From the NCBI RefSeq assembly GCF_900167095.1, contig NZ_FUXG01000013.1, positions 1 through 64,000 of the forward strand: DNA of 64,000 nucleotides, read 5' to 3'. The translations under genes were made by a program, and so were the position numbers. Of this stretch, positions 1 through 62,574 are shown in pieces; the stretch's first letter is position 1; each line of letters begins with the position of its first letter. The DNA comes from Oceanospirillum multiglobuliferum (GTDB lineage Bacteria; Pseudomonadota; Gammaproteobacteria; Pseudomonadales; Halomonadaceae). The notes beneath the pieces are model-generated. The model ran no database searches. It saw only the letters and a program-made list of their open reading frames with translations, and was not told the DNA's origin.

Positions 1-270
1 CTGACGCAGCATCAAAATCACGAGGTCAAACAGTTCATTACCCTGAGCAAGCTTTTTCACTGGTCGACAGCCTACTCTTCGAGCCTGACGGTTGGCTTGA
101 GCCTTAGGTGCTTCGTATAGGCCATCGGCAAGCTGGTTACGACGAATCTCTCGACTGATTGTTGAGGGGCTTCGATCAAGTAGGCGAGCAATACTTCGCA
201 GACTGAGATTGTGAAGCAGGCCAATTTGAATAGTGGCACGCTCTTCTATGTTGAGTTCTTTGTATGTCAT
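1..270 (-). CDS. IS30-family transposase, N-terminal part (runs off the left edge)
   Basis: The reverse strand reads from an ATG at 270 to the window edge without a stop, giving 90 residues that begin MTYKELNIEERATIQIG. This is the N-terminal helix-turn-helix region of IS30-type DDE transposases. The segment LSLRSIARLLDRSPSTISRE is the DNA-recognition helix pair that binds the element's inverted repeats. The catalytic DDE domain lies outside the window, so integrity cannot be judged. The 5' flank carries the element's terminal repeat region. The family assignment rests on the N-terminal motif and is fairly secure. Confidence 0.85.
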   Translation of the reverse strand, partial: MTYKELNIEERATIQIGLLHNLSLRSIARLLDRSPSTISREIRRNQLADGLYEAPKAQANRQARRVGCRPVKKLAQGNELFDLVILMLRQ

Positions 271-321
271 AACAACACCTTACCCGATATTGGATTAGGT
301 GTTGCACTCAGAATTTGCCGC
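1..321 (-). mobile_element. End of an IS30-family insertion sequence
   Basis: The transposase start at 270 is followed outward by about 50 noncoding bases. Near 300-320 there is a sequence resembling an IS30-family terminal repeat (gttgcactcagaatttgccg on the plus strand). The neighbouring gene's stop codon is at 335-337, so the element ends within about 15 bases of an intact gene. The exact outer boundary and the target-site duplication cannot be set because the other end is outside the window. Confidence 0.6.
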
Positions 322-334
322 TAAGCAGTAAAAG

Positions 335-1123
335 CTATGGTGAAGTTTGATAGTACTGTTGTTGTACCTTTGAAAAAAAGCCGTTATTAATAATTTGCTC
401 TATGCTCTGATTAAACAATTGTTCTTGCTTATAAAAAGGCGATTTTTTAGAAATACCTAAGTATAGAAGCGTGCTATTTTCAGGTTCAAAAGCAGCCTTG
501 GTGAATTGGTTGTGCCAGCGGCTCAAGCTAAGTTCATAATCTGCTTGGCAATCTGTTCCAATATAAGTGTCGATGCGTTTGGCGCTCAACAAAAACAGTA
601 AAGTGTTTTCTTGAGTTACGATATGCTTGTTAAGTTTGGTATCGTTATCAAATTCAAAGTAGTAAGCAGAACCCCTCACCATGCCTATTCTAAGATTGTA
701 AAGATCGCTGCTCTGTTGCAACTTTGCTTTATCTTCGTTTCGAATATAAAAGCGCGTGTTGCAGTGATAATAAGGGGGTGAAAGGTAGTGAATATATTGC
801 GCCCGCTCTTCTCGCCAAGCGATCCCTGTCATTAAGTCTAGTTCTCCAGTCTGCATCATCAGTAAGCAGCGTGCCCAAGGGCATTGTATGTATTGTATTT
901 TTAGCCCTTGCATTTGAGCGAGTTGGTTTAGCAGGTCGATGTCTATACCTTTAAACTCGCCTTGGGTTGCGATTCTGAATGGTTCCCACGCGCTGAATGC
1001 GACTCGAAGTACTTTGCCTATAGGATTGTTTTGTGTCGCTATCGCTAGGTTGTCACTGCTAGCGCTTGATGCAATTGAGCACAGCCAGAGTAATAATATC
1101 AGGGCAGATTTCTTTATTCCCAT
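335..1123 (-). CDS. Periplasmic substrate-binding protein, family 3
   Basis: The 262-residue protein has an N-terminal signal peptide (hydrophobic LILLLWLCSIASSASS, cleavage near residue 22). The rest resembles a bacterial extracellular solute-binding protein family 3 domain, with the pattern FRIATQGEFKGIDIDLLNQL near the start of the mature part and AGELDLMTG-like MQTGELDLMTGIAWREER in the first lobe. Such proteins bind amino acids or related small solutes in the periplasm. No permease or ATPase gene is adjacent, so it may be an orphan receptor or sensor rather than part of a transporter. The IS30 end lies just beyond its stop codon, but the reading frame appears intact. The ligand is unknown. 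Confidence 0.75.
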   Translation of the reverse strand: MGIKKSALILLLWLCSIASSASSDNLAIATQNNPIGKVLRVAFSAWEPFRIATQGEFKGIDIDLLNQLAQMQGLKIQYIQCPWARCLLMMQTGELDLMTGIAWREERAQYIHYLSPPYYHCNTRFYIRNEDKAKLQQSSDLYNLRIGMVRGSAYYFEFDNDTKLNKHIVTQENTLLFLLSAKRIDTYIGTDCQADYELSLSRWHNQFTKAAFEPENSTLLYLGISKKSPFYKQEQLFNQSIEQIINNGFFSKVQQQYYQTSP

Positions 1124-1225
1124 TGGATAATCCTGCTCACCTGTTTGATGCTACAAGTATAGCTTAGATATTTGGCGGTGCAGAAAGGTTGGGATTTTGG
1201 TGGGTTTTGTCGAGTCTATAAAGGC

Positions 1226-1337
1226 GGAAGCCCCCGCCAGCCACACCTCGGCACACGATCCGCTTGCTGTGGCTGCTCCCTTCCGGGCCTGACCAGGTTC
1301 ACAAGTTTCCGTTGCGAGGGGACCGACGAGGGCCTCC
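1226..1337 (-). ncRNA. ffs: 4.5S RNA, signal recognition particle RNA
   Basis: On the minus strand the 112-nt segment contains the conserved SRP RNA apical domain: CAGGCCCGGAAGGGAGCAGC, preceded by GAACCTGGT. This is the Ffh-binding asymmetric loop and GGAA-type tetraloop. The two ends pair over at least eight positions (GGAGGCCC near 1337 with GGGCTTCC near 1226), as expected for the single long hairpin of 4.5S RNA. With Ffh it targets inner-membrane proteins to FtsY and SecYEG. Open reading frames across this segment are accidental. End positions are taken from the terminal pairing and are accurate to a few bases. Confidence 0.95.
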
Positions 1338-1352
1338 ATAATTTGCTTGTGC

Positions 1353-1380
1353 GCTATAGCGCTTCAAACAACGTGCGTAA
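1353..1380 (-). promoter_or_regulatory. Probable promoter of the 4.5S RNA gene
   Basis: On the minus strand a TATAGC box (1353-1358) lies 16 bases downstream of TTACGC (1375-1380). It would start transcription about ten bases before the mature 5' end, consistent with a short precursor leader trimmed by RNase P. The -10 box sits inside a 12-bp perfect palindrome (GCGCTATAGCGC, 1351-1362). The call rests on spacing and hexamer similarity only. Confidence 0.4.
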
Positions 1381-1484
1381 TCTTAACACTATCAATTAGT
1401 TAGATACAACAGTTCTTTTCTTTGGTTGCTCGTTTTTATCAGAGTGTAATTGCTTTGCTCTATTGATAGGGCGATAAATCAAAA

Positions 1485-1519
1485 AAACACAAACCTATAG
1501 TAACGGGTTTGTGTTTTTT
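1485..1519. terminator. Bidirectional rho-independent terminator at the end of the AST operon
   Basis: ACACAAACC (1487-1495) pairs with GGTTTGTGT (1506-1514). It is flanked by an A-run on the left and a T-run on the right, so it can terminate the minus-strand astB transcript and any plus-strand transcript. It lies 16 bases past the astB stop. Confidence 0.85.
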
Positions 1520-1534
1520 GATATGCGCTAATGG

Positions 1535-2869
1535 CTAAATTTGGAACGGATACACCGAGCCTAAATTCAAAATGCGCGTTAGTTCGTCTAAAGCCGTGCG
1601 AGATTCAATTAGCAATTGAGGATCGGCTAGATCTGCCTCTGTTAAACGGTCGCGATAGTGACGCTCTACCCAGTTGTTTAGACTCTTAAACAGTGTCTCA
1701 CTCATGCGAGTCGATTGGTTAAATGCCTGTAGTTCAGCATCATTTAACACTACGCGCAAACGCAAACAGGCAGGCCCGCCACCATTGCACATACTTTGTT
1801 TCAAGTCGAAAACCTGTAGGTCGTCAATTGGGCTGCTGCCATCACGTAGCTCGGTTAAATACTGCCAAACCGCAGGGTTTTGACGGCATTCATCTGGAAT
1901 CACTAGCAAGGTGCGGCCATCGGTCAGGCTTAGCAATTGGCTGTTAAACAGATAGCTGGTGACCGCATCTTGTACTGTTACGCGGTTGTTTGGCACTTCA
2001 ATGATATTAAACTGACCGCCTAACTTTTGGCTCAACTCTTGTTTAACCTGTGTTTGGTCAACAAAAGCTAGCTCATGGCAGAACAAGGTGTTGCGGTTGC
2101 CCACGGCGATTACATCATTGTGAAAAACCCCTTGGTCTATTACTTCAGGGTTTTGTTGTGCGTAAACCACTTGGTTTGCACTTAAACCATGAATGCGTGC
2201 CACGGCCTCAGAAGCTTCTAGTGTGTGACGGGCGGGATAGCGTTTTGGCGCAGGACGATTGTTGTCAAACGCACTACGGCCATAGACAAAAAACTCAACC
2301 CCTGTATCGCCATAGTTATGGCAGAAACGAGTGTGATTGGCTGCACCTTCGTCACCAAAGTGTTCTACGCTGGGTAGTGCGCCATGATGAGTAAAGTGAG
2401 CTTTGTCACTGAAGGTGGCCTGCAAAATGCGCCCCGTGGTTTCGTGCTCAATAGAGCGGTGAAACTTATTGGTAAGATTGGCAGGGGTAAAATGTACCTT
2501 ACCATCTGCCGTATCTGCGCTCGGTGAAACCGTGGCTGCATTAGCCGTCCACATACTAGAGGCTGAGCAGCAAGCCGCCAAAATACGAGGGGCGTCTTTT
2601 GCTGCGCTGGCTAGCACCTCTGCATCACTGCCCGTAAAACCCAAGCGGCGCAAAGTGTTAATGTCAGGCCGCTCTTGTGGCGCTAATACCCCTTGCACTA
2701 AGCCCATGTCGTGCAGGGCTTTCATTTTGGCTAAGCCCTGCAAGGCCGCTAATTTAGGATTAGACGCCAATGCTTCGTTACTTTGTGACGCCACATTGCC
2801 AAAAGACAAGCCACTGTAGTTGTGAGTTGGGCCGACTAAACCATCAAAATTCGCTTCAAATGCTTTCAT
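1535..2869 (-). CDS. astB: N-succinylarginine dihydrolase
   Basis: Second enzyme of the arginine succinyltransferase (AST) pathway. It hydrolyses N2-succinylarginine to N2-succinylornithine, ammonia and carbon dioxide in the cytoplasm. The 444-residue protein matches AstB in length and in conserved blocks: [18 protein letters not shown] at the N terminus and [14 protein letters not shown] near the C terminus, the latter carrying the predicted catalytic Cys. The ATG at 2869 is preferred over the GTG two codons upstream because GGAG lies 7 nt before it. It is the last gene of a minus-strand operon and is followed by a strong terminator. Confidence 0.95.
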
Positions 2870-2893
2870 TCGCACTCTCCAATCGCTTGTCTA

Positions 2894-5396
<2,503 letters not shown>

Positions 5397-51813: not shown

Positions 51814-51989
51814 GTTGTTTCTGCTCTATTACTTTATTGATCAGATTCATCTCGTTTGTTCTGTTTTATCCCATTCTTATATCTTTCCCTCTGCTTTCAT
51901 AGCTTTAGAATAAAGTAGTGCTATCTGCTTGTTTGTCTTAGGTTTACACTGCGCTTAGATCTCTTCTTTTGCCATATTGGGTGATAAAA

Positions 51990-53270
51990 ATGGCCAATAA
52001 TAAAAAACTTTTGCATCAGGTTCGCCAGTTGTCTGACAAAATGGTTGAGCTACAAGCACCTATTCGTGTGTTAGATGCAGTGAACTGGGATAAAAGTGTA
52101 AAGCAGGAGTTTTTTAAGTATAAGGCAGAGCGCCTGCCCAATATTACCCGTGATACTTATCTGCAACGAGATTTAGGCTTTGACCCAGAAAACTTGCGCC
52201 ATGCCTTCAGTACCTTGGAGCAAGAGATCAGCCGCACCATCGGGCAGTTAAACCCTATGGCCCGTTTGATGAAGCGGATGTGTACTGAGTACCGTCAAGT
52301 GTTGCGTATGATTGAGTCACGGGGAACGCCGGACTTTCATTACTATTCCGTTGAGCTTTACGGTCATCCGCATGATGTTTTCCATGCGGGCGACCCAACG
52401 CTTGCTGAACTGGCCATTATGTTGGAAGAGCCGTTGGTTCGTCTGATGGATCACAGTATCTTACCGGATGACCCTAAAGATATTCCAGCAGAACAGGCCC
52501 TTTCTTACCTTGATAGTGTATTGAATAAAAGCATGCCGGGGCTGAATGCGCGCGTGATTCTGTCTGACGGTATTGTCAGTGACGCAGCGGCAGGTAGTGA
52601 TTACATTAAACTCAATAAAGAAGTGATGTTTTCTCAGAGAGAGCTTGATCTGCTAGAGGCTCATGAAGGCTGGATTCATGTGGGAACCACTCAAAATGGT
52701 TTGGCCCAACCTTATCTGACCTGTTTAGCAAAAGGTACGCCTAGCTCAACAGTGACCCAAGAAGGCTTAGCGGTATTAACTGAGATCATTACGCTACGCT
52801 CTACTCCAAGGCGGTTATCTAAACTGATTAATCGAATTCGGGCGGTTACTTTAGCAACGGATGGCGCAGATTTTATAGAGGTGTTCCGTTATCTGCGTGA
52901 CAAGGGTTTGAGTGAAGAGGATAGCTATACTATTGCCAGTCGCACTTTTCGTGGCAGCTTGCCGGATGGTTTGCCCTTCACTAAAGATTTGGCTTATATC
53001 AAAGGCTTTGTGCTGACGTATAACTTCTTCCGAGTTGCGGTGCAAAAGGGTCGGATTGATCTGTTACCTCTGCTTTTGGTGGGCAAAATCAACCTTGATG
53101 ATTTCCGCTTGATCAGTGAGTTGCATGAGCAAGGCATTGTGGTGGCACCTAAGTTCTTACCGCCACACTTTCAAGATCTGCGCGGCTTAGTGACTTGGTT
53201 AAGTTTTGGCCGCTTTATTGGCTCGTTGAAGTTTGACCAATTGGAAAAAGATTACAGCCCATTATTTTAG
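51990..53270 (+). CDS. QEGLA-motif (MATCAP / DUF1704-type) metallopeptidase
   Basis: A 426-residue protein called flavohemoglobin expression-modulating QEGLA motif protein in databases. The motif TVTQEGLAVLTE is present near residue 258. A zinc-peptidase-like HEGWIH (HExxxH) segment lies near residue 230, as in the MATCAP tyrosine carboxypeptidase family. It has no signal peptide. The native substrate in bacteria is unknown. GGGTGA precedes the ATG at 51990; an upstream TTG is rejected. It is not linked to an hmp gene here. Confidence 0.85.
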   Translation: MANNKKLLHQVRQLSDKMVELQAPIRVLDAVNWDKSVKQEFFKYKAERLPNITRDTYLQRDLGFDPENLRHAFSTLEQEISRTIGQLNPMARLMKRMCTEYRQVLRMIESRGTPDFHYYSVELYGHPHDVFHAGDPTLAELAIMLEEPLVRLMDHSILPDDPKDIPAEQALSYLDSVLNKSMPGLNARVILSDGIVSDAAAGSDYIKLNKEVMFSQRELDLLEAHEGWIHVGTTQNGLAQPYLTCLAKGTPSSTVTQEGLAVLTEIITLRSTPRRLSKLINRIRAVTLATDGADFIEVFRYLRDKGLSEEDSYTIASRTFRGSLPDGLPFTKDLAYIKGFVLTYNFFRVAVQKGRIDLLPLLLVGKINLDDFRLISELHEQGIVVAPKFLPPHFQDLRGLVTWLSFGRFIGSLKFDQLEKDYSPLF

Positions 53271-53328
53271 GTTGAAACTGATTGATGCTATTTCCCCTTA
53301 ATTGATCTCTTTGATTGCGAGGCAGCTT

Positions 53329-54702
53329 GTGAAACGTCGGGAATTTTTACAATTGGGTGCATTATCAACAGCAGGTTTGTGTTTACCTCGCTGGTCTTTA
53401 GCTCAGGTGAATGCTGTGCAGCCTTATCATTACCGACTGACAGCAGAATTGGCTGAGGCAGAGCTGGTTACAGGTATTAAAACGCCTGTGATGGCTTTTA
53501 ATGGTCAAACACCAGCACCCATTATTCGAGCCAAACAGGGGCAGCCGATTCGTATTGAGTTTGAAAATAAACTCAACGAACCCACGACTATTCATTGGCA
53601 TGGGCTGCGTATTCCAATTGAAATGGATGGTGTGCCTTTTCTAAGCCAACCACCTGTCATGCCTGGCGAAACTTTTGTCTACGAGTTTACACCTCCTGAT
53701 GGGGGTACTTTTTGGTACCACCCCCATATGAACAGTGTTGAACAGTTAGGTCGCGGTTTGGTTGGCGCATTAGTGGTTGAAGAGGCCGTTAAACCGAGCT
53801 TCGATATCGACGAAACTTTGATCTTAAAGCACTGGCATATTAATGATCAGGGCGAGTGGCAAGTGTTGAGCCAGCCCCGTTATGCAGCGCGTATGGGAAC
53901 ACCGGGCGAGTGGGGGACAGTGAATGGTCTCAAACAGCCTCAATATCGCTATCCAGCTGGCAGTTTAGTACGGTTGCGGGTTGTAAATGTCGATAATACC
54001 ATGACCTATCACTTGCGTTTGAAAGGTGTTGAGGCACAAGTCATCGCCATTGATGGCAATCCAATTTCAGAGCCTTACCCTCTTATGCAACATAAAATGG
54101 GGCCGGGGATGCGTTTGGATGTGGCGTTTATTATGCCGAATACTGCCAAGCCTTTTGTGTTAGAGCATATGCGAGGAAAATTTGGTTTTCCTATGGCCAG
54201 CTTTGCCCGTAATGAACAGGTTGTGGCGCACCAAAAAAGAACCCTGCCAAAGTTGCCTCTTAACCCTATTCCTGTGCCTGATCTGACCAATGCCGAAACG
54301 GTGAACTTCATTTTTGAGTGGGAAGGGGCGATCAGTCCTAGCGATCAATCCGGACAGGCGCACCCCACATTCTGGTTGATCAATCGTCGCCCTTGGCAAG
54401 GTATGGGGCCGGGTAATATCCCAGAGCCAGTGGCAAATTTAAAGCTGGGTAAAAGCTATATATTTGATCTGCGCAACAACACTCAATACCACCATCCCAT
54501 TCACCTGCATGGGCATACGTTCTGGGTGCTAGAAATGGATGGCGAGCCTGTAAAACCTTTTCATACCGATACGATCTTGTTGGGTAAGAATGGTCGAGCT
54601 AAGGCTGCTTTTGTGGCTGACAATCCGGGGCGATGGATGTACCACTGCCATGTAATTGAGCATATGAAAACAGGTTTGATGGGCTATATTCAGGTCAGTT
54701 AG
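53329..54702 (+). CDS. Tat-exported multicopper oxidase (laccase-like)
   Basis: A 457-residue, three-cupredoxin oxidase. The N terminus VKRREFLQLG is a twin-arginine signal with a hydrophobic stretch ending in SLA. All copper motifs are present: IHWHGL, WYHPHM, HHPIHLHGHTF, and YHCHVIEHMKTGLM with the type 1 Met. It should oxidise a phenol, metal or other donor and reduce oxygen to water in the periplasm. The GTG at 53329 is chosen because GAGG lies six bases upstream. It converges on a second multicopper oxidase and may form part of the same functional locus. Confidence 0.93.
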   Translation: MKRREFLQLGALSTAGLCLPRWSLAQVNAVQPYHYRLTAELAEAELVTGIKTPVMAFNGQTPAPIIRAKQGQPIRIEFENKLNEPTTIHWHGLRIPIEMDGVPFLSQPPVMPGETFVYEFTPPDGGTFWYHPHMNSVEQLGRGLVGALVVEEAVKPSFDIDETLILKHWHINDQGEWQVLSQPRYAARMGTPGEWGTVNGLKQPQYRYPAGSLVRLRVVNVDNTMTYHLRLKGVEAQVIAIDGNPISEPYPLMQHKMGPGMRLDVAFIMPNTAKPFVLEHMRGKFGFPMASFARNEQVVAHQKRTLPKLPLNPIPVPDLTNAETVNFIFEWEGAISPSDQSGQAHPTFWLINRRPWQGMGPGNIPEPVANLKLGKSYIFDLRNNTQYHHPIHLHGHTFWVLEMDGEPVKPFHTDTILLGKNGRAKAAFVADNPGRWMYHCHVIEHMKTGLMGYIQVS

Positions 54703-54706
54703 TAAT

Positions 54707-54738
54707 AAGGGCAAGCGGCTATTCAGCGGCTTGCCCTT
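54707..54738. terminator. Bidirectional terminator between the two multicopper oxidase genes
   Basis: AAGGGCAAGC pairs with GCTTGCCCTT around an inner GC-containing loop. It serves both convergent units. Confidence 0.8.
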
Positions 54739-54751
54739 TATGAACTATTGA

Positions 54752-56299
54752 TTAAGTCGGTTGATAAACATTAATTGCTTGCATCATACCCAGGTCTTCA
54801 TGGGTCAAATTATGGCAATGGAAAACAAAAGTACCTGTGTAATCTTTAAAGCGTGTTCTGAAACGAAGACGCTGGAAAGGCTCCAAGTTGACAGTGTCTA
54901 ACCAAATACCGGACTTTACGCCACCACCAGAAATCATCTGAAATGGATTCACATGAATATGGAAGGGGTGTGACTCTGCGGTGTGGTTATAAACCTCCCA
55001 CTCTTCCACGGCATTCAGTGGAATCTGCCAAGCATTGCTACAAGAGAAAGGCTCGCCATTGATGGTGTATTTTGGCCCTGTAGGGTCACCGGATAGACCA
55101 AACTCTAAACGCCGACCGAAGGTTACCTCATCATCTTTAATGTTATCCAATGAAGCTGGGCGTGGTAATTTACCGCTATATAGTGGCATATCTTGGCTAT
55201 CGCCTGTGACTTCAAGGTAGGCGACAACTTCATTCTCAACCCCTTCTGCGCCACTGTGTATTGGGTATAGGCCCGGTTTTTTAGCTTTGATCAATAGATC
55301 CGCACGGTTGCCTGGAATCAATACCAGCTGGTCGATCGCTTCTGTTTTTTCTAGTGGATTGCCGTCGAAACAAAGCGCAGTCATTTGGTGCTCTTCAATG
55401 CTCAGCTTCATATTCGCCATATGACTGGCGTTTACCATGCGCCAGTACTGAACTTCACCCGAGCGCATCGTAATGGTTGGCTTTAGCTGGCCATTGATAT
55501 AGATGTCGCCATAGGTGTTCAGCAAGTCGTAGTTTTCACAGACGCCGATTGAGCTGCCGAGTAAGCTTTTGCTCCACTCTGTTTCAAAGCGCTGAGTTTG
55601 AAAGCAGATCACCTGCTCTTTTGCGGCTGCAATTTCTGGAATGCTGTTAAGCCCCTCTTCTCCTTCACTTTCAATGATCAGCGCCCCCGCCATGCCACTA
55701 GCAACTTGTAGTGATACTGAGCCATGAAAATGGGCATGATAGAAATAAGTACCCGGTGGATGATCTTTGGGGATTTGATAAACGTAGTGTTCGCTTTGCT
55801 GATAACTCACCAATAATAAAATATTGTCTGAAGGGCTATTCGGTGAAACATGAACACCATGCACGTGCATATTGGTGACGTTAAAACCACGGGGCTTGTT
55901 ATCACTATCATCTGGAATGGCGGTACAAAGATCCTGCAATGGGTCGTAGGGTAGCTTGTTGTGTAGGCTTAAACGAATGGTGTCCCCTGCTTTTACTCGT
56001 AAAGTTCTACCAATAGGCAGGCCATCGTAGCAGCGCAACATGACGGGCTGTCCACCAAGATCGAACCTGCCGTACTGTGCGTCAATACTGACTTGCAGCA
56101 GGCCATTTTTAGCTACCTCTTCTTTTGGATTGATCAATTTAGGTGACGGACCAAGGCGCGCCATTGAGCGATTAATGGCAGGCATTGCACAGCCAATGCT
56201 ACCGCCCAAAATGCCACTAGCGGCTGTGACGCCTAAACCTTTCAATAAGGTTCTGCGATTCAATTGAGTCGAGTGTAATAAGCTTTTATCTTTTTTCAT
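54752..56299 (-). CDS. Tat-exported multicopper oxidase, last gene of the GMC operon
   Basis: A 515-residue multicopper oxidase. It has a Tat signal (NRRTLLKGLG then AASGILGGSIGCA). A Cys follows the hydrophobic stretch, so lipoprotein processing is possible. Copper motifs are complete: MHVHGVHV, YFYHAHFHG, HPFHIHVNPF, and FHCHNLTHEDLGMM. Its ATG overlaps the GMC flavoprotein stop codon by four bases, a sign of translational coupling and perhaps of a stable complex. I infer that it accepts electrons from the flavoprotein. Its own substrate is otherwise unknown. It differs clearly from the convergent oxidase at 53329-54702. Confidence 0.92.
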   Translation of the reverse strand: MKKDKSLLHSTQLNRRTLLKGLGVTAASGILGGSIGCAMPAINRSMARLGPSPKLINPKEEVAKNGLLQVSIDAQYGRFDLGGQPVMLRCYDGLPIGRTLRVKAGDTIRLSLHNKLPYDPLQDLCTAIPDDSDNKPRGFNVTNMHVHGVHVSPNSPSDNILLLVSYQQSEHYVYQIPKDHPPGTYFYHAHFHGSVSLQVASGMAGALIIESEGEEGLNSIPEIAAAKEQVICFQTQRFETEWSKSLLGSSIGVCENYDLLNTYGDIYINGQLKPTITMRSGEVQYWRMVNASHMANMKLSIEEHQMTALCFDGNPLEKTEAIDQLVLIPGNRADLLIKAKKPGLYPIHSGAEGVENEVVAYLEVTGDSQDMPLYSGKLPRPASLDNIKDDEVTFGRRLEFGLSGDPTGPKYTINGEPFSCSNAWQIPLNAVEEWEVYNHTAESHPFHIHVNPFQMISGGGVKSGIWLDTVNLEPFQRLRFRTRFKDYTGTFVFHCHNLTHEDLGMMQAINVYQPT

Positions 56300-58104
56300 G
56301 CCGACGCTCCCTGTGTTGGCTGGAAGAACTGACTGAGAATATGTTCAGCACTGCGCAATCCTAAGGCTGCAGCAGTAAGAGAAGGTGATGCGCTACCAAC
56401 GCTTAGATAATTAGCGGTGCCTACGACATATAAGTTAGGGTTATCAAAACTCTGGCAGAATCGATTCACAACGGCATTGCTGGGGTTGTCGCCCATACAT
56501 ACAGTACCTGCGATTACCGCATCGCCAGAACTTAGGCTAAGTTTGTACTCTTTGGCATAATCTCCACGAATAAAAGCCTCCCAGTCCTGATCGCTATCCG
56601 TTGGCATTGGGTCATCGGTTATGGTTCTAATACCTAGCTTATGGAAAACACTCATGTGCCAATTCCATGCGGTACGGCAGCCCTTGAGGGTGTATTCATC
56701 TAGTTTAAAGTTAACCTCTGGGCGAGGTAACCCTAGTGGATCAAGCTTGTCAGATAAGGTGATACGGTTATCGGCATGCGGTAAAACTTCAATGGTGCTG
56801 TGTAGGTTAATCTGGCGAGCAGTACGGTTATCAATATACTGGCGTAACTCATCACCATATAAGCCCTGTGCGATACCGCTTTTAGCCTCATCAAGTGGGC
56901 CATTAGCAAAACGAAAAGCAGCATTGATAATAAAAGGCGCGATAGAGGCATAGTCTTTACGAAACTCACCATCACGCCATTGGCCAAAAGCACCTGTCGC
57001 GCTGACAGGACCTCTGTAAGGGTAAACGGGCATGCTTTCAGGTGCATAGCCAATGGTATTGACGTTGGCAAATCCCATTAAGTTGCGACCTACTTGGTCG
57101 GAAGAGTTAGATAAACCTGCTTTAGGTACATTGTGCTTACCTGCTGATAACAGCATCAAACGAGCACTTTCAACGGCATGGGCAGCTAAAACATAAACCT
57201 TTGCCCTAGCAACACCAATAGGGCCAGTTTTAGGATCAGCATCAAAATTACGGTAGTAAATACCCGAAACTTCACCTTTATTATCTAACGCAACTTGGTA
57301 AGCCACACGGTTTGGTAGCACTCTGGTTCCTAGTTGTTCTGCCTTGTGAACGTGCACGCTGGCATCGTATTTTGCTCCAATAGGGCAAATCGGTAAGCAA
57401 CTTGAATTGCCACAACATTGAGGCCGATTATCTCTAGGAATGGAGTTACGGCAGTGAGGGATAGGTTGGCTGTCTGGGCCAAGGTTATTATCTGCAACAC
57501 CTGCGCCTAGCGTTCTATCCAAATAGGAACGAGGTACAACAGGCATTGGATAACCTTTGTCTCTTGGTGGTGCTATACAGCTAGCGTCCCCTGCAACTCC
57601 CCACGCATCTTCAACCTGATTGTAGTAAGGCTGAATCTCGTTGTAATTGATAGGCCAATTTTTACCTACGTTATACGAGGTTTTCATTGTAAAGTCATTT
57701 GGGAATAGGCGCTCTGCATGGCCTGTCCAATGCCAAGAGGTTCCACCCACCAAGCGCATAAAAAAGCCTTCAAAAGCCATCTGTTTTAAAGGCTCTTGTG
57801 GCGCACCTTCAGGGGGTAAGTTAGGCTGCACATAGTAGCTTAGAGGGTCATCATCATCCGGGACAGGTGCCCAGGGCATCATTTCGTAAGGCGAGTTTGC
57901 ACCTTTATCTACACTGCTCTTAAAACGATTAATGGCATTGACCCGATCAACTCTTGCACCTGCATCTAAGATCACAACATTTAAACCTTGCTGTGACAGT
58001 TTCCAAGCCATCATACCGCCGACAACGCCAGCCCCAATAATGACGACATCGGCATCAATGGTTTCCTGTGGGTTTGACTCACTGTATCTTGTTTGTTCCG
58101 ACAT
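56296..58104 (-). CDS. GMC-family flavoprotein with a [3Fe-4S]-type Cys motif
   Basis: A 602-residue FAD-dependent GMC oxidoreductase of the membrane FAD-glucose/fructose dehydrogenase class. The dinucleotide fold is DVVIIGAGVVGGMMAWKLSQ near residue 19. The segment RPQCCGNSSCLPICPIGA gives Cys 230, 231, 236 and 240 in the CC-x4-C-x3-C arrangement that binds a [3Fe-4S] cluster in bacterial FAD-glucose dehydrogenase. The protein has no signal peptide, so it probably crosses the membrane with the small subunit encoded upstream. At the C terminus the usual catalytic His and the second His/Asn appear replaced by Val (about 530, VIAGTVCMG) and Ser (about 573, SASPSLT). GGAG precedes the ATG. Confidence 0.9.
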   Translation of the reverse strand: MSEQTRYSESNPQETIDADVVIIGAGVVGGMMAWKLSQQGLNVVILDAGARVDRVNAINRFKSSVDKGANSPYEMMPWAPVPDDDDPLSYYVQPNLPPEGAPQEPLKQMAFEGFFMRLVGGTSWHWTGHAERLFPNDFTMKTSYNVGKNWPINYNEIQPYYNQVEDAWGVAGDASCIAPPRDKGYPMPVVPRSYLDRTLGAGVADNNLGPDSQPIPHCRNSIPRDNRPQCCGNSSCLPICPIGAKYDASVHVHKAEQLGTRVLPNRVAYQVALDNKGEVSGIYYRNFDADPKTGPIGVARAKVYVLAAHAVESARLMLLSAGKHNVPKAGLSNSSDQVGRNLMGFANVNTIGYAPESMPVYPYRGPVSATGAFGQWRDGEFRKDYASIAPFIINAAFRFANGPLDEAKSGIAQGLYGDELRQYIDNRTARQINLHSTIEVLPHADNRITLSDKLDPLGLPRPEVNFKLDEYTLKGCRTAWNWHMSVFHKLGIRTITDDPMPTDSDQDWEAFIRGDYAKEYKLSLSSGDAVIAGTVCMGDNPSNAVVNRFCQSFDNPNLYVVGTANYLSVGSASPSLTAAALGLRSAEHILSQFFQPTQGASA

Positions 58105-58151
58105 TATTGCACTCCATTTTTGATCTAGAGAATTCCGTTATGAGACAAAGC

Positions 58152-58775
58152 TTAAGCTTTTGTTGCAGGAGGATTTGCCCAGTACCCAAATGGGCCTCCG
58201 CAAGTCGCTGATGGTTTAGTAAAATCACAGGCTTGCCAAACCAATGCTTCGTCATAACTGATCATCGCAGTGATAGAGCCATTGGCATTTAAGAGAGGCT
58301 TGGGGTTAGTGTGCCCACGTAAATTGCTACAAATACGTTGCACATTGGCATTGGTTAAATACTTAGGGCTGATCTCTATTTGCCCTAAATACCATGCAGT
58401 TAGCGTGCGATGTGCTAGCTTGTTCCACACAGAACTAAAAGGATCGAATGTACGGTTGTGCTTAATCTCAGCAGAGAGTTGACGTATGTGGTAGGGGTTG
58501 AAATCGGTTAGAAATAGCAGTTGCAATATATCGTGACCCAATTGCATATAAGAACGATCAAGTTCAATCCCTGTTAAGAATGAACTGATCTCTAAAAAAT
58601 CAATAACAAGATCTTGATCTTGAGTCGAGGCAAATACAGAGGATAAAGGCGTGGCAGCAAGGGCAGCTGCAACCGCTATTTGTTTGAGTATATTGCGCCG
58701 CTCAAGAGAGTCTGGCTGATTGTTGAGGACTTTATCGCGATAATCAAGTTTAGGATTGGATAGATGTTTCATCAT
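58152..58775 (-). CDS. Tat-signal small subunit of the GMC dehydrogenase (gluconate-2-dehydrogenase subunit 3 / FAD-GDH gamma type)
   Basis: A 207-residue protein with a twin-arginine signal (ERRNILKQIAVAAALAATPL, cleavage near SVFA). The helical mature part (FLEISSFLTGIELDRSYMQL, then AHRTLTAWYLGQIE) is like the small subunit of membrane sugar dehydrogenases, whose Tat signal carries the folded flavoprotein out of the cytoplasm. Cys near the C terminus (WQACDFTKPSATCGGPFGYW) may form a disulfide. The ATG at 58775 has GGA upstream. It lies 47 bases before the GMC gene in the same operon. Confidence 0.75.
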   Translation of the reverse strand: MMKHLSNPKLDYRDKVLNNQPDSLERRNILKQIAVAAALAATPLSSVFASTQDQDLVIDFLEISSFLTGIELDRSYMQLGHDILQLLFLTDFNPYHIRQLSAEIKHNRTFDPFSSVWNKLAHRTLTAWYLGQIEISPKYLTNANVQRICSNLRGHTNPKPLLNANGSITAMISYDEALVWQACDFTKPSATCGGPFGYWANPPATKA

Positions 58776-58842
58776 ATAATTCCACTTTTTAGACAAAATA
58801 ACTGCCTATTTTAAAGGTTAAACATAGTTTATTTGTCACTTG

Positions 58843-59556
58843 CTAGACTGGGGGTTGATTACAAGCGCTTAAAAACATATTGCACTCAAACTGCATGCAC
58901 TTCGAGAATATATCAATTGCTAGTTGTTGATTCATTTCATTCGCATGTGCATTGATAAAATCTGCCATACTTTTAGGTGCGTCAACTACTTGATTGGCTT
59001 TAATCCAGCTACTGTATAAATTCTGCGGTGTTGCATAGTGGTTCAAACTAACTCCAATGTAAGTCCATAATGAGATACAAGGCGTCATGGCGACAATAAA
59101 ATAGAGGGGGTCAAGTTCTTCTGCTACATAGCGTTCAAAGCTAGCATATTGTTGGGCGATGCTTGTGAGTTTTATCCCTGCGGGGTCTTTAATGTGCCAA
59201 CCTGCGAAAACTTCAGCGTTATAGTTTTCATAGTCTTTCTGACGCGCCTCACAGAAACTCTTGATCTCTGGGTTTTGGGCTTTTGGGATCACTATGTCGT
59301 AATCTGCCACCGAATAACTACAGTATGCTGCATCTAACACAGTAAATTGGCCATATTGGTCAGGGTCTAATGTGCAGTGTGCAATGCCTTGTATAAAGTC
59401 AGAGTGTAGTGCTGTTTGTTGATACAAAGTGGTTGCAGCCCACATTTGGTCATATAAGGAGGATGGGCTGGCGTCAGTTTGTAGTTGTGGTCGGAGGTTG
59501 ATGCTTTTTAATGGAGTCTTTGAGCGAGGAGAACGGCTCAATAAAGAGTTAAACAT
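58843..59556 (-). CDS. TenA/heme-oxygenase-fold protein, first gene of the GMC operon
   Basis: A 237-residue, mostly helical cytoplasmic protein. The run FIQGIAHCTLDPDQYGQFTV, then LDAAYCSYSV, AEVFAGWHIKD, and YASFERYVAEELDPLYFIVA resembles the TenA/THI-4 helical-bundle fold. The YLxQD-type signature of thiaminase II is not kept. It heads a four-gene operon with a Tat small subunit, a GMC flavoprotein and a multicopper oxidase. TenA-like proteins can be hydrolases or, in the heme-oxygenase-like superfamily, diiron oxygenases. No function is assigned. Confidence 0.6.
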   Translation of the reverse strand: MFNSLLSRSPRSKTPLKSINLRPQLQTDASPSSLYDQMWAATTLYQQTALHSDFIQGIAHCTLDPDQYGQFTVLDAAYCSYSVADYDIVIPKAQNPEIKSFCEARQKDYENYNAEVFAGWHIKDPAGIKLTSIAQQYASFERYVAEELDPLYFIVAMTPCISLWTYIGVSLNHYATPQNLYSSWIKANQVVDAPKSMADFINAHANEMNQQLAIDIFSKCMQFECNMFLSACNQPPV

Positions 59557-60147
59557 GCTTCTATCCTTGAGAGTTAAGCTAAGGTTTTAGTTACTAACCA
59601 ATATTCGGCTATAGCAGGCTAGTGCTCTATTGCTTGCATGTTTTTATAATATAGGCGGTATTCTTTTAGTGCTAGAAAATTTTATTAATATCGGATTGAT
59701 ATCATTTTTATATCCCTCTTGTTAATTATGATATAGGACTGGCGAACTTTGCTTGTCTTGTTTCAAGTATAAGGGGTTTGTGTGAATTTTAGGTTTTTAC
59801 TTATTAGCTAAATGAGGGTGGCAAGCTCTCTTTACAGATGCTTGGTGTTAAGTAGGGGGGAGTCTGTGCGCATGGTCTTGGCAGAATGAGTGTCTATATA
59901 TTGCTAGAGTTTGGATTTTTCAGAGCGCTAAATAGGGTGGTGAGCTCTCGTTTGAGATCGTCTATATATCGTGTGGTTTTTCTAGGGTCAAAAACCAGGA
60001 CGAACCAATTGATATTGGGCAATGAAATAATTAAAAGGATTAAAGCTTTGTTAGAAATTGTTATTTTTTGTAGTATGATCAACGAGTTCTCTGGGTGATA
60101 GGTTTTCGATTGCAGTGTTGCGCTCGTTTGGTTTTATGGAGGTGGTT
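59557..60147. other. AT-rich divergent region with no convincing gene
   Basis: About 590 bases separating the GMC operon from the next plus-strand unit. A 70-codon frame at 59886-60098 has no recognisable domain and is probably chance. A JUMPstart-like stretch lies near 59835-59872. The base composition is more AT-rich than to the left, suggesting a boundary between native and acquired DNA. Confidence 0.5.
59835..59872 (+). promoter_or_regulatory. Possible JUMPstart/ops-like element
   Basis: The stretch CAGATGCTTGGTGTTAAGTA, followed by GGGGGGAGTCTGTGCGC, resembles the JUMPstart consensus (CAG...GCT.TGGTAGCTGTTAAG..AGGGGCGGTAGCGTG) found in untranslated leaders of polysaccharide operons and used by RfaH. 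The ops core is imperfect (about seven of eleven positions by eye), so this is tentative. It precedes a gene with features of surface-polysaccharide clusters. Confidence 0.3.
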
Positions 60148-62574
60148 GTGGGTGTAGTCAAAAAGGTGATATATAGGGATGATTCGGCACTTAGCAGTCC
60201 ACGTCACAGAAATCTCTTTTTAGACATGGAAGAGAATATTCATATTCACTATCGCGACCTTAGAATTGAGCTGAGCCGAGCCGAGTTCGAAGAGTTCTCT
60301 GCTGCATTCAACAGCCAGTCAAAAGAATTGCTACAGATTATTACGGATAAAAACTATCAGGATGGAGTTTTAGCAAATGCTAATCAAGAGGATGTCAGGA
60401 TTTGGACTGAGTCAAGGCTTAGCACTGATGTCAAATACCACCCTCGTCGGATCTCATTAGAAGATTGTGGTGATGGATACCACTTGCACTATCGCCAATA
60501 TAAAATTCTGTTAGATGATATTGATTTTCGTGAGCTTACTAGAATATTTAGTAGCGTGGATATTGATGCTCCTTATGCCAGAAGCTATGACGAGGTGTTA
60601 CAGCTAATTAAAGATAACGATGTTGACTTTACACTAGATGCCTCAAATGTACCTGGGAAAATTCTGGGATTAAAAGTTGCGAAATACCATTTACCTAAAG
60701 TACGCGATATTTTTCAATATATAGGTTTTAACACAACTTCTGAAAACAATATTCGAGTTTATGAAGGTGAAGTTTTAAAGGTTTTTGTAACTCATGATGA
60801 GTTTAAGGTGCCTGCAGACTACAAAAAAATCCGAGAGTACTCTGACTCCTATAGGTTGTTTGACTTTATCTCTAAGAATAAAAACAGTATTTCAGTTGAT
60901 GATATAAATTTAATAAAAAGTCAGGTTGTTGATCTTTATTATACGGTTAAGTCAGGGACTGTTGTTAATGTCGAGTCTGATCCCGAGTGTTGGTTGTATC
61001 TACCTGCTACAAAAAAAGTGATTTACCCATATTCTTCCAGTGGCCTTTCAGGGGCGAAGGATGCAGATGCTCTCTATAAAAAATGGTCGGCATTAGTAGC
61101 TTTGTATGACATTGGTTTCATTAAGCCGACTAAAAAGTCTTTTGATAAGAAGTATCAAAATGAGCTGTATGAAAAGATTTTGTCTACAATAAAGAATAAT
61201 GTGGCAACGAAATCTGCTGTTGAAAGAGTCTGGATTATGGGCTCTGCTGCGAGAAAAGACATGGGTACATATAATGCACCCTTTGTACATGGCAGAATGC
61301 TGAAGTTAGGCTCTGATATAGATATACTTATTGAAATTGATCCGACAAGAGAAGCGGATGTGCCAAAAGATTGGCATTTGATTAACACCATGTCCTCAAA
61401 TAAGTGTGCCGTTTACCATTTGGAACAGATACCGATTATTAGCGATATCGGTTACTGGGAAAATCTGCTGCCACACACACCGCTAACACAGCACTTGATA
61501 GATGCTTATGTTTACTTTCCATCTAGAGGGTTCTCAAAAGAGCGAGATGCCTTTCTCAATAGGTTTAAAGCAATTTGCATATATGACCGATCTAAAGAGG
61601 GTGTAATACATTCTAGCGGTAAGCTTGGAGAGTTATCCAGAATTGTAGCTGAACACTATCCTTTAGATGATGTTATTGTTGAGGCTATGAATGTCTCAAC
61701 AGAGAATGAGGTGTACAAAGTTTATAGTAAGCAAGGTATATATTTGTTAAAGCTTTTCAAGGTCTCAGGGAATTACCCTCAAAGCCGAGTAGAGGAACAT
61801 GTTTTTTATGAGTTTGATCTGATTGCTCGATTAGTTGATTTAGGTGTTAAAACGGCGAAGATAGTACCTGTGAAAACAGGGGGTGTTTTGAAAGTCAATG
61901 ATCATCCTGCCCTGTTATTTGAATTTCTTCCAGGTGTTATAAATAAAAAACCAGAATATGATATTGATGCATATTCAAGGTCGCTGTCTAGCTTACATCT
62001 TGCTCAGATTAATAACGAAATTGAACTGCCAGAGCTTTTTACTTTTAAAGATACGGCTAAAATATGGTTGGATGCATATCCTGGATATTTAGAATTAGCT
62101 GATAGAAGCGAGTCGCTGAAGCTTAGTTTTGATATTATGAATAGAGTTTATGACTCTGTATCAGACTTAGAAAAGCTTGCAAAGAATAGCAAGGGTGTAG
62201 AAATTTTACATAATCATGGTGATGTCGCATCAAAAAATATCATGATTGATAATGGTGAGGCTGTTTTTTTCGACTTTAACAATGCTTTTTATGGGCCTAG
62301 AATTATTGATGTTTTAGATGGCGCTTTTGAGCTTTCCATGGCAGAAAAGTATATGGATGAAATTGATTTCTCTAGATTTCATGTTTTTGTTGATAGTTAT
62401 AGAGCATATGCGCCTTTTAATAAGGCCGAAGAGAAAAATATACATTATTGGGTGGTTTTATTGGGTTTGATTAAATTCACTAAAGAAATTAGAGTAATGG
62501 TTAGCGGGGATAAGAGCGGCTTGAGGGAAAAAAGAGCTCATGCAATTGCAAATTTCATTTCATCACTAAATTAA
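60148..62574 (+). CDS. Multidomain nucleotidyltransferase-phosphotransferase fusion with duplicated N-terminal motif
   Basis: An 808-residue protein. The N-terminal part has two copies of a motif (NIHIHYRDLRIELSRAEFEE near residue 27, GYHLHYRQYKILLDDIDFRE near 111). A nucleotidyltransferase-like segment follows (VWIMGSAARKDMG and SDIDILIEID near 365-405). The C-terminal third is an aminoglycoside-phosphotransferase-like kinase (VYSKQGIYLLKLF, ILHNHGDVASKNIMID and VFFDFNNAFYGPR). The roles are inferred from these motifs. It may modify or activate a sugar or lipid carrier in envelope glycan synthesis, but no substrate is known. The GTG at 60148 has GGAGG five bases upstream; the ATG at 60136 is the alternative. 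AT-rich codons differ from the left part of the window. Confidence 0.75.
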   Translation: MGVVKKVIYRDDSALSSPRHRNLFLDMEENIHIHYRDLRIELSRAEFEEFSAAFNSQSKELLQIITDKNYQDGVLANANQEDVRIWTESRLSTDVKYHPRRISLEDCGDGYHLHYRQYKILLDDIDFRELTRIFSSVDIDAPYARSYDEVLQLIKDNDVDFTLDASNVPGKILGLKVAKYHLPKVRDIFQYIGFNTTSENNIRVYEGEVLKVFVTHDEFKVPADYKKIREYSDSYRLFDFISKNKNSISVDDINLIKSQVVDLYYTVKSGTVVNVESDPECWLYLPATKKVIYPYSSSGLSGAKDADALYKKWSALVALYDIGFIKPTKKSFDKKYQNELYEKILSTIKNNVATKSAVERVWIMGSAARKDMGTYNAPFVHGRMLKLGSDIDILIEIDPTREADVPKDWHLINTMSSNKCAVYHLEQIPIISDIGYWENLLPHTPLTQHLIDAYVYFPSRGFSKERDAFLNRFKAICIYDRSKEGVIHSSGKLGELSRIVAEHYPLDDVIVEAMNVSTENEVYKVYSKQGIYLLKLFKVSGNYPQSRVEEHVFYEFDLIARLVDLGVKTAKIVPVKTGGVLKVNDHPALLFEFLPGVINKKPEYDIDAYSRSLSSLHLAQINNEIELPELFTFKDTAKIWLDAYPGYLELADRSESLKLSFDIMNRVYDSVSDLEKLAKNSKGVEILHNHGDVASKNIMIDNGEAVFFDFNNAFYGPRIIDVLDGAFELSMAEKYMDEIDFSRFHVFVDSYRAYAPFNKAEEKNIHYWVVLLGLIKFTKEIRVMVSGDKSGLREKRAHAIANFISSLN

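Follow-up and report, generated by a model that had tools for sequence, protein, structure and literature searches.

The window analysed here is the whole 64,000-nucleotide stretch of Oceanospirillum multiglobuliferum DNA. Six-frame translation identifies five intact genes between positions 53302 and 59556, each at the place assigned to it in a preliminary description of this DNA. That description had grouped a TenA-like gene, a Tat-signal small subunit, a GMC flavoprotein and a multicopper oxidase (MCO) into one four-gene operon that is faced by a second multicopper oxidase. The features referred to below, with residues of Burkholderia cepacia glucose dehydrogenase (BcGDH) given for comparison, are as follows:

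53302..54702, plus strand: second, convergent multicopper oxidase; a resident gene next to a QEGLA gene, outside the cassette
54704..54742: terminator-like inverted repeat lying in the gap between the converging MCO genes, read by eye
54752..56299, minus strand: cassette MCO, with its own Tat signal and a full set of copper ligands
56296..56299, minus strand: 4-nt stop/start overlap of the GMC and MCO genes; the same overlap occurs in Marinomonas (L040)
56296..58104, minus strand: GMC flavoprotein of the same type as the BcGDH/FDH large subunits, missing the catalytic His/Asn pair
56386..56388, minus strand: Ser573 codon, at the position of the BcGDH catalytic Asn519
56515..56517, minus strand: Val530 codon, at the position of the BcGDH catalytic His476
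57385..57417, minus strand: codons for Cys230, Cys231, Cys236 and Cys240, equivalent to BcGDH Cys212, 213, 218 and 222
57730..57732, minus strand: His125 codon, equivalent by alignment to the FAD-linked His105 of BcGDH
58152..58796, minus strand: Tat-signal small subunit, hitchhiker/gamma-like (PF12318), with the RR motif at residues 33-34
58843..59556, minus strand: TenA-like helical protein, an upstream, co-directional neighbour outside the conserved cassette

Several structural details of the preliminary description hold at this resolution. The 4-nt overlap that it reported is present, its [3Fe-4S]-type cysteine motif (CCGNSSCLPIC) aligns to the ligand cysteines of BcGDH, and the MCO that it called complete has all copper ligands in place (H145, H147, H188, H190, H444, H447, H449, H494, C495, H496, H500 and the axial M505). 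It had also remarked on the lack of a local CXXCH cytochrome gene, and there is indeed no CXXCH-containing ORF of at least 60 aa in the 44-64 kb portion of the window. The small subunit matches the PF12318 FAD-SLDH family in a Pfam search (E 8.6e-9, above the cut-off), and its Cys199 is likely the partner of the second Cys of the GMC. Its gene precedes the GMC gene in every cassette locus with a readable flank.

Analysis of the flanking genes indicates that the operon was drawn too widely. The TenA-like gene was considered as a fourth operon gene and rejected, as it is absent from other cassettes and as the genus-mate G005 keeps it without the other three genes. Among the related genomes searched, this gene was present in just that one (68%), where it lies about 78 kb from a site that contains HisC, YitT, MCO and QEGLA genes. 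The protein itself scores 20.7 bits against the TENA_THI-4 profile, for which the cut-off is 22 bits, and it matches the TenA relative BT3146 at E 1.6e-31 with Cys, Asp and Glu conserved by eye. The facing MCO is intact and convergent as described, but was likewise rejected as a partner because it sits far from the cassette MCOs in the MCO tree and because the genus-mates G004 and G005 have HisC, YitT, this MCO and QEGLA together with no cassette. An inverted repeat, AAGGGCAAGC...GCTTGCCCTT at about 54707-54739, separates the convergent gene from the cassette and, by its form, might terminate transcription in both directions. What is conserved is a set of three genes, encoding the Tat small subunit, the GMC and the MCO. 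It is this trio that recurs in Marinomonas and on two Skermanella plasmids.

The GMC flavoprotein is clearly related to well-characterized dehydrogenases, as it matches PDB entries 6a2u and 7w2j at E 1e-96 to 1e-94. A single-chain predicted model superposes on fructose dehydrogenase (FDH) and BcGDH with Z 46-52 and rmsd 1.7-1.8 A over about 530 residues, and neither VIA-align nor Foldseek listed any family closer than these. In BcGDH, His476 and Asn519 form the catalytic pair, His105 carries FAD, Cys212, Cys218 and Cys222 are the [3Fe-4S] ligands and Cys213 forms a disulfide to the small subunit (PMC6719666). Every one of the 116 aligned GMCs keeps the FAD-linking His and all three cluster Cys. 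The catalytic columns differ sharply between two sets of sequences: in the His column, all 15 members of a clade that includes the window protein have Val or Ile and the 101 other GMCs all have His; in the Asn column, the same 15 have Ser, Ala or Pro and the same 101 have Asn. An Asp-His motif that nearly all other members keep is also lost in all 15. Tyr91, Trp168, His217, His309, Tyr363 and Phe466 never vary within the clade, and in other GMCs they are less frequent or missing. The GMCs without the catalytic His form a single clade (bootstrap/SH-aLRT 100/99), and the His-bearing sequences all fall on the other side of the tree, so that one loss explains the pattern. Comparison of close pairs gave dN/dS values of 0.06-0.19 for both GMC and MCO, indicative of purifying selection, which argues against decay of either gene. 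Because no member has the His/Asn pair, this clade cannot use the textbook sugar-dehydrogenase mechanism, and the sequences do not bear out an ordinary FAD sugar or alcohol dehydrogenase, as the dehydrogenase-laccase complex of the preliminary description would imply. The flavin anchor and the cluster ligands have been retained, as has the small-subunit Cys, and this argues for a flavin-to-cluster wire that would still work.

A scan of the genome collection with the GMC alignment yielded 80 loci, and the clade members among the loci analysed fall into distinct arrangements. Type A comprises four loci, those of the window, Marinomonas (L040) and Skermanella (L035 and L036), with the gene order small subunit-GMC-MCO. 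In the trio of Marinomonas sp. SBI8L (L040, read from the locus and its flanks) the GMC and MCO are 75% and 64% identical to those of the window, and the best plasmid relatives of the window MCO are in Skermanella rosea and Skermanella mucosa, where the same order is found. Type B comprises six alphaproteobacterial loci (L037, L098, L042, L043, L044 and L154) from Salipiger sp. CCB-MM3, S. mangrovisoli, Chelativorans, Agrobacterium sp. a22-2, Paracoccus isoporae and genome G1146. The type B order is MCO, one-heme cytochrome c (PF00034), a phytochelatin-synthase-like protein (PF05023, E 4e-54), small subunit, GMC and a membrane protein. Type C, from four Rhizobiales (L150-L153), has the small subunit and GMC, with a linked membrane protein in three. 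In the three type C loci where it could be read, a protein of about 490 aa that has a single CXXCH and matches no Pfam family adjoins the GMC; a small cytochrome c and a PF05023 protein were read in two, and in the others the sequence (a contig or a fetched stretch) ends close by. No clade-type MCO was found in the type C genomes, where the best scores are 84-185 bits versus 650 in a type B genome. The three types are supported as GMC subclades (A 100/98, B 100/99, C 100/97), with C sister to B. One position ahead of the Asn519 column, types B and C have an Asn, and this residue may have a shifted role.

A Chromatiales MAG (G511) has PF05023, small-subunit and GMC genes on one contig and a related MCO on another. 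It was considered as a case of the GMC without an MCO, which was rejected once the MCO was found on the separate contig. Fusion of this MCO to another protein, suggested by an open frame of 1134 aa, was also rejected since the frame is a stop-free reading of GC-rich DNA and has an internal Tat start (MNWTRRRFL). By eye, the Chromatiales MCO adjoins SCO1-like and MFS-like ORFs (L120, positions 1-4750). Signal-peptide proteins of the PF05023 family are linked to the flavoprotein in L037 (9837-10529), L042, L043, L044, L098, L154 and L041.

The clade is sparse in sampled genomes. At the higher score level it was detected in 1 of 294 genomes from the order of the window, 5 of 397 from the order of G513 and 3 of 391 from that of G515, and genus-mates of the window have no GMC at E 1e-30 or better. 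Where the His-less GMC does occur, the clade MCO is present in 11 of 15 genomes or records. At the level of loci the association is 10 of 15, versus none of the 77 His-bearing GMC loci with long flanks having a clade MCO within 4 kb (Fisher 4e-10, a P value that overstates independence as the 15 are a single clade). The recurrence of the trio in other genera and classes indicates that its arrangement is more than chance.

In the cassette MCO, the ligands of the type 1 copper and of the trinuclear site do not vary across all 11 cassette relatives compared. Its predicted model, which has a mean pLDDT of 69 and rests on six sequences, matches Thermus laccase. Cassette MCOs group as one clade at weak support (71/81). 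One Skermanella plasmid also encodes a second, larger MCO of 679 aa (L121, 5009-7048) that belongs to another MCO branch.

In BcGDH the electron wire ends at a heme that lies some 8 A away from the cluster (PMC9727119). The four type A loci have no linked cytochrome gene, the Marinomonas and Skermanella flanks containing no CXXCH ORF of cytochrome kind, and there the MCO is the sole other conserved partner and the sole conserved candidate acceptor. Across the clade, an MCO and a heme-motif protein alternate beside the GMC, and a heme-motif protein in the place of the MCO, as seen in type C, is what an acceptor role of the MCO would predict. From type A and from this alternation, the MCO plausibly occupies that slot, with O2 as the terminal oxidant. 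Local absence of a cytochrome proves nothing by itself, because a His-bearing sister group of 14 loci (L045, L047, L070 and L155-L165) has the small subunit and GMC and no cytochrome or MCO gene in the vicinity, indicating that unlinked acceptors exist in this family. Whether cytochrome c is always absent, a point raised by the preliminary description, is answered in the negative by the six type B cassettes that pair the MCO with a one-heme cytochrome c. Its proposal that the MCO takes the place of the cytochrome is supported in part.

Comparison with known systems clarifies what is shared and what is not. The window GMC has the large-subunit fold of BcGDH (6a2u/8grj) and Gluconobacter FDH (7w2j/8jej) and, by alignment, shares with the DET-type FAD dehydrogenases both the His predicted to link FAD (His125) and the Cys set of the putative [3Fe-4S] cluster (C230, C236 and C240). 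The extra disulfide Cys and the Tat hitchhiker small subunit are further features in common (PMC6719666). However, DET-type enzymes keep His476/Asn519 where the window GMC has V530/S573, and they have a three-heme cytochrome c subunit, which the window set lacks, an MCO being linked instead. The trio should therefore not be filed as a DET-type member, although on the electron-transfer side it probably works like one. The window MCO shares the fold and complete copper ligand set of three-domain MCOs such as Thermus thermophilus laccase (2xu9); it is 28% identical to the latter, differs from it in being encoded with a flavo-iron-sulfur protein, and with its cassette relatives forms a weakly supported subfamily of its own. 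Cellobiose dehydrogenase and pyranose oxidase/dehydrogenase also have the GMC fold, and to our knowledge none of them has a [3Fe-4S] cluster or an MCO subunit. These enzymes keep a His/His or His/Asn pair (PMC6719666). Full-text searches of open-licence papers turned up no account of a GMC with an MCO, of phytochelatin synthase with an MCO or of a flavin dehydrogenase-laccase complex, in line with the preliminary description, which knew of no described system with this exact composition.

These observations suggest that the trio constitutes an undescribed electron-to-oxygen enzyme complex. There is about an even prospect, in our judgement, that the small subunit, GMC and MCO form a Tat-exported periplasmic redox complex or pair that passes electrons to O2. 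We only tentatively put forward the fuller version, to which we give a little under an even chance, of an undescribed flavin/iron-sulfur/copper oxidase in which a GMC without His/Asn chemistry delivers electrons from its [3Fe-4S] cluster to an MCO in the cytochrome c slot. We infer export, cofactor loading, complex formation and the direction of electron flow as follows. The small subunit would escort the pre-folded GMC through Tat export, and the GMC would carry FAD bound through its His and, at its surface, a [3Fe-4S] cluster. Electrons from the cluster would pass to the type 1 copper of the MCO, itself exported by its own Tat signal, and from there to the trinuclear copper site, where O2 would be reduced to water. 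The one-heme cytochrome c of type B may be an extra carrier or an alternative acceptor, and the single-CXXCH protein of type C appears to stand in for the MCO. The GMC half-reaction would run without a His/Asn base, on a substrate that may be acidic, easily oxidised or a one-electron donor; alternatively, the catalytic groups may have been relocated to His217, His309, Tyr91, Trp168 and Tyr363. The Skermanella operon lies between transporter genes and genes for glyoxylate carboligase and hydroxypyruvate isomerase, which is a weak hint, peculiar to Skermanella, of a small hydroxy-acid substrate.

Not all of the evidence favours this oxidase. The four type C genomes without a clade MCO indicate that the MCO is not obligatory for the GMC, and the cytochrome c of type B could be the true acceptor there. 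Both facts fit a model in which the MCO works on its own as a laccase or metallo-oxidase, acting on the same substrate, on its product or on a metal, so that GMC and MCO share an operon through a common pathway and not through electrons, the GMC using a soluble cytochrome or quinone encoded elsewhere. Such a role would suit the nearest relatives of the MCO, Thermus laccase and the CueO-type enzymes, which act alone, as well as the related GMC group without any linked acceptor. It does not readily account for the alternation of heme-motif protein and MCO beside one GMC clade, nor for type A conserving the MCO alone as a further partner, and we regard it as rather unlikely.

The loss of the catalytic residues and Asp-His motif throughout the clade could instead mean that the GMC has ceased to be an enzyme in itself and is a redox-active scaffold, electron relay or sensor that acts with the MCO and, in relatives, with a PF05023 protein in periplasmic copper or thiol handling. 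The linkage of PF05023 in both type B and type C, as well as in the Chromatiales MAG, is consistent with this, as is the SCO1-like ORF seen by eye next to the Chromatiales MCO. However, the clade has new invariant residues, selection is strongly purifying, and the window genome and two Skermanella plasmids have no PF05023 match, making such a function decidedly improbable. Clear family and fold membership is what speaks for an ordinary sugar or alcohol dehydrogenase with an MCO adjacent by chance, but given the missing catalytic pair and an MCO linkage that is kept across classes, there is very little likelihood of it.

If the proposed oxidase is real, then a well-studied dehydrogenase family relevant to biosensors could have either cytochromes or a copper enzyme that reduces O2 on its acceptor side, the two being interchangeable, and a natural heme-free flavin-to-O2 complex would be useful for enzymatic fuel cells. 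A clade that retains the FAD-linking His and cluster Cys yet has no catalytic pair is in addition a sharp test case: either GMC chemistry can dispense with the His/Asn pair, or these proteins are electron carriers in some other process.

Two further observations concern the surroundings of the cassette in the window. A QEGLA/MATCAP-family gene and an MCO gene are adjacent in three species of the genus (window 51969-54702, L172 and L173), with the order of the two swapped in the window relative to the other two. On the other side, positions 60115-62574 encode an 819-aa protein whose C-terminal part contains an APH-like phosphotransferase domain, preceded by a possible nucleotidyltransferase motif, and this gene lies in a stretch of low G+C content (about 0.37 versus 0.45).
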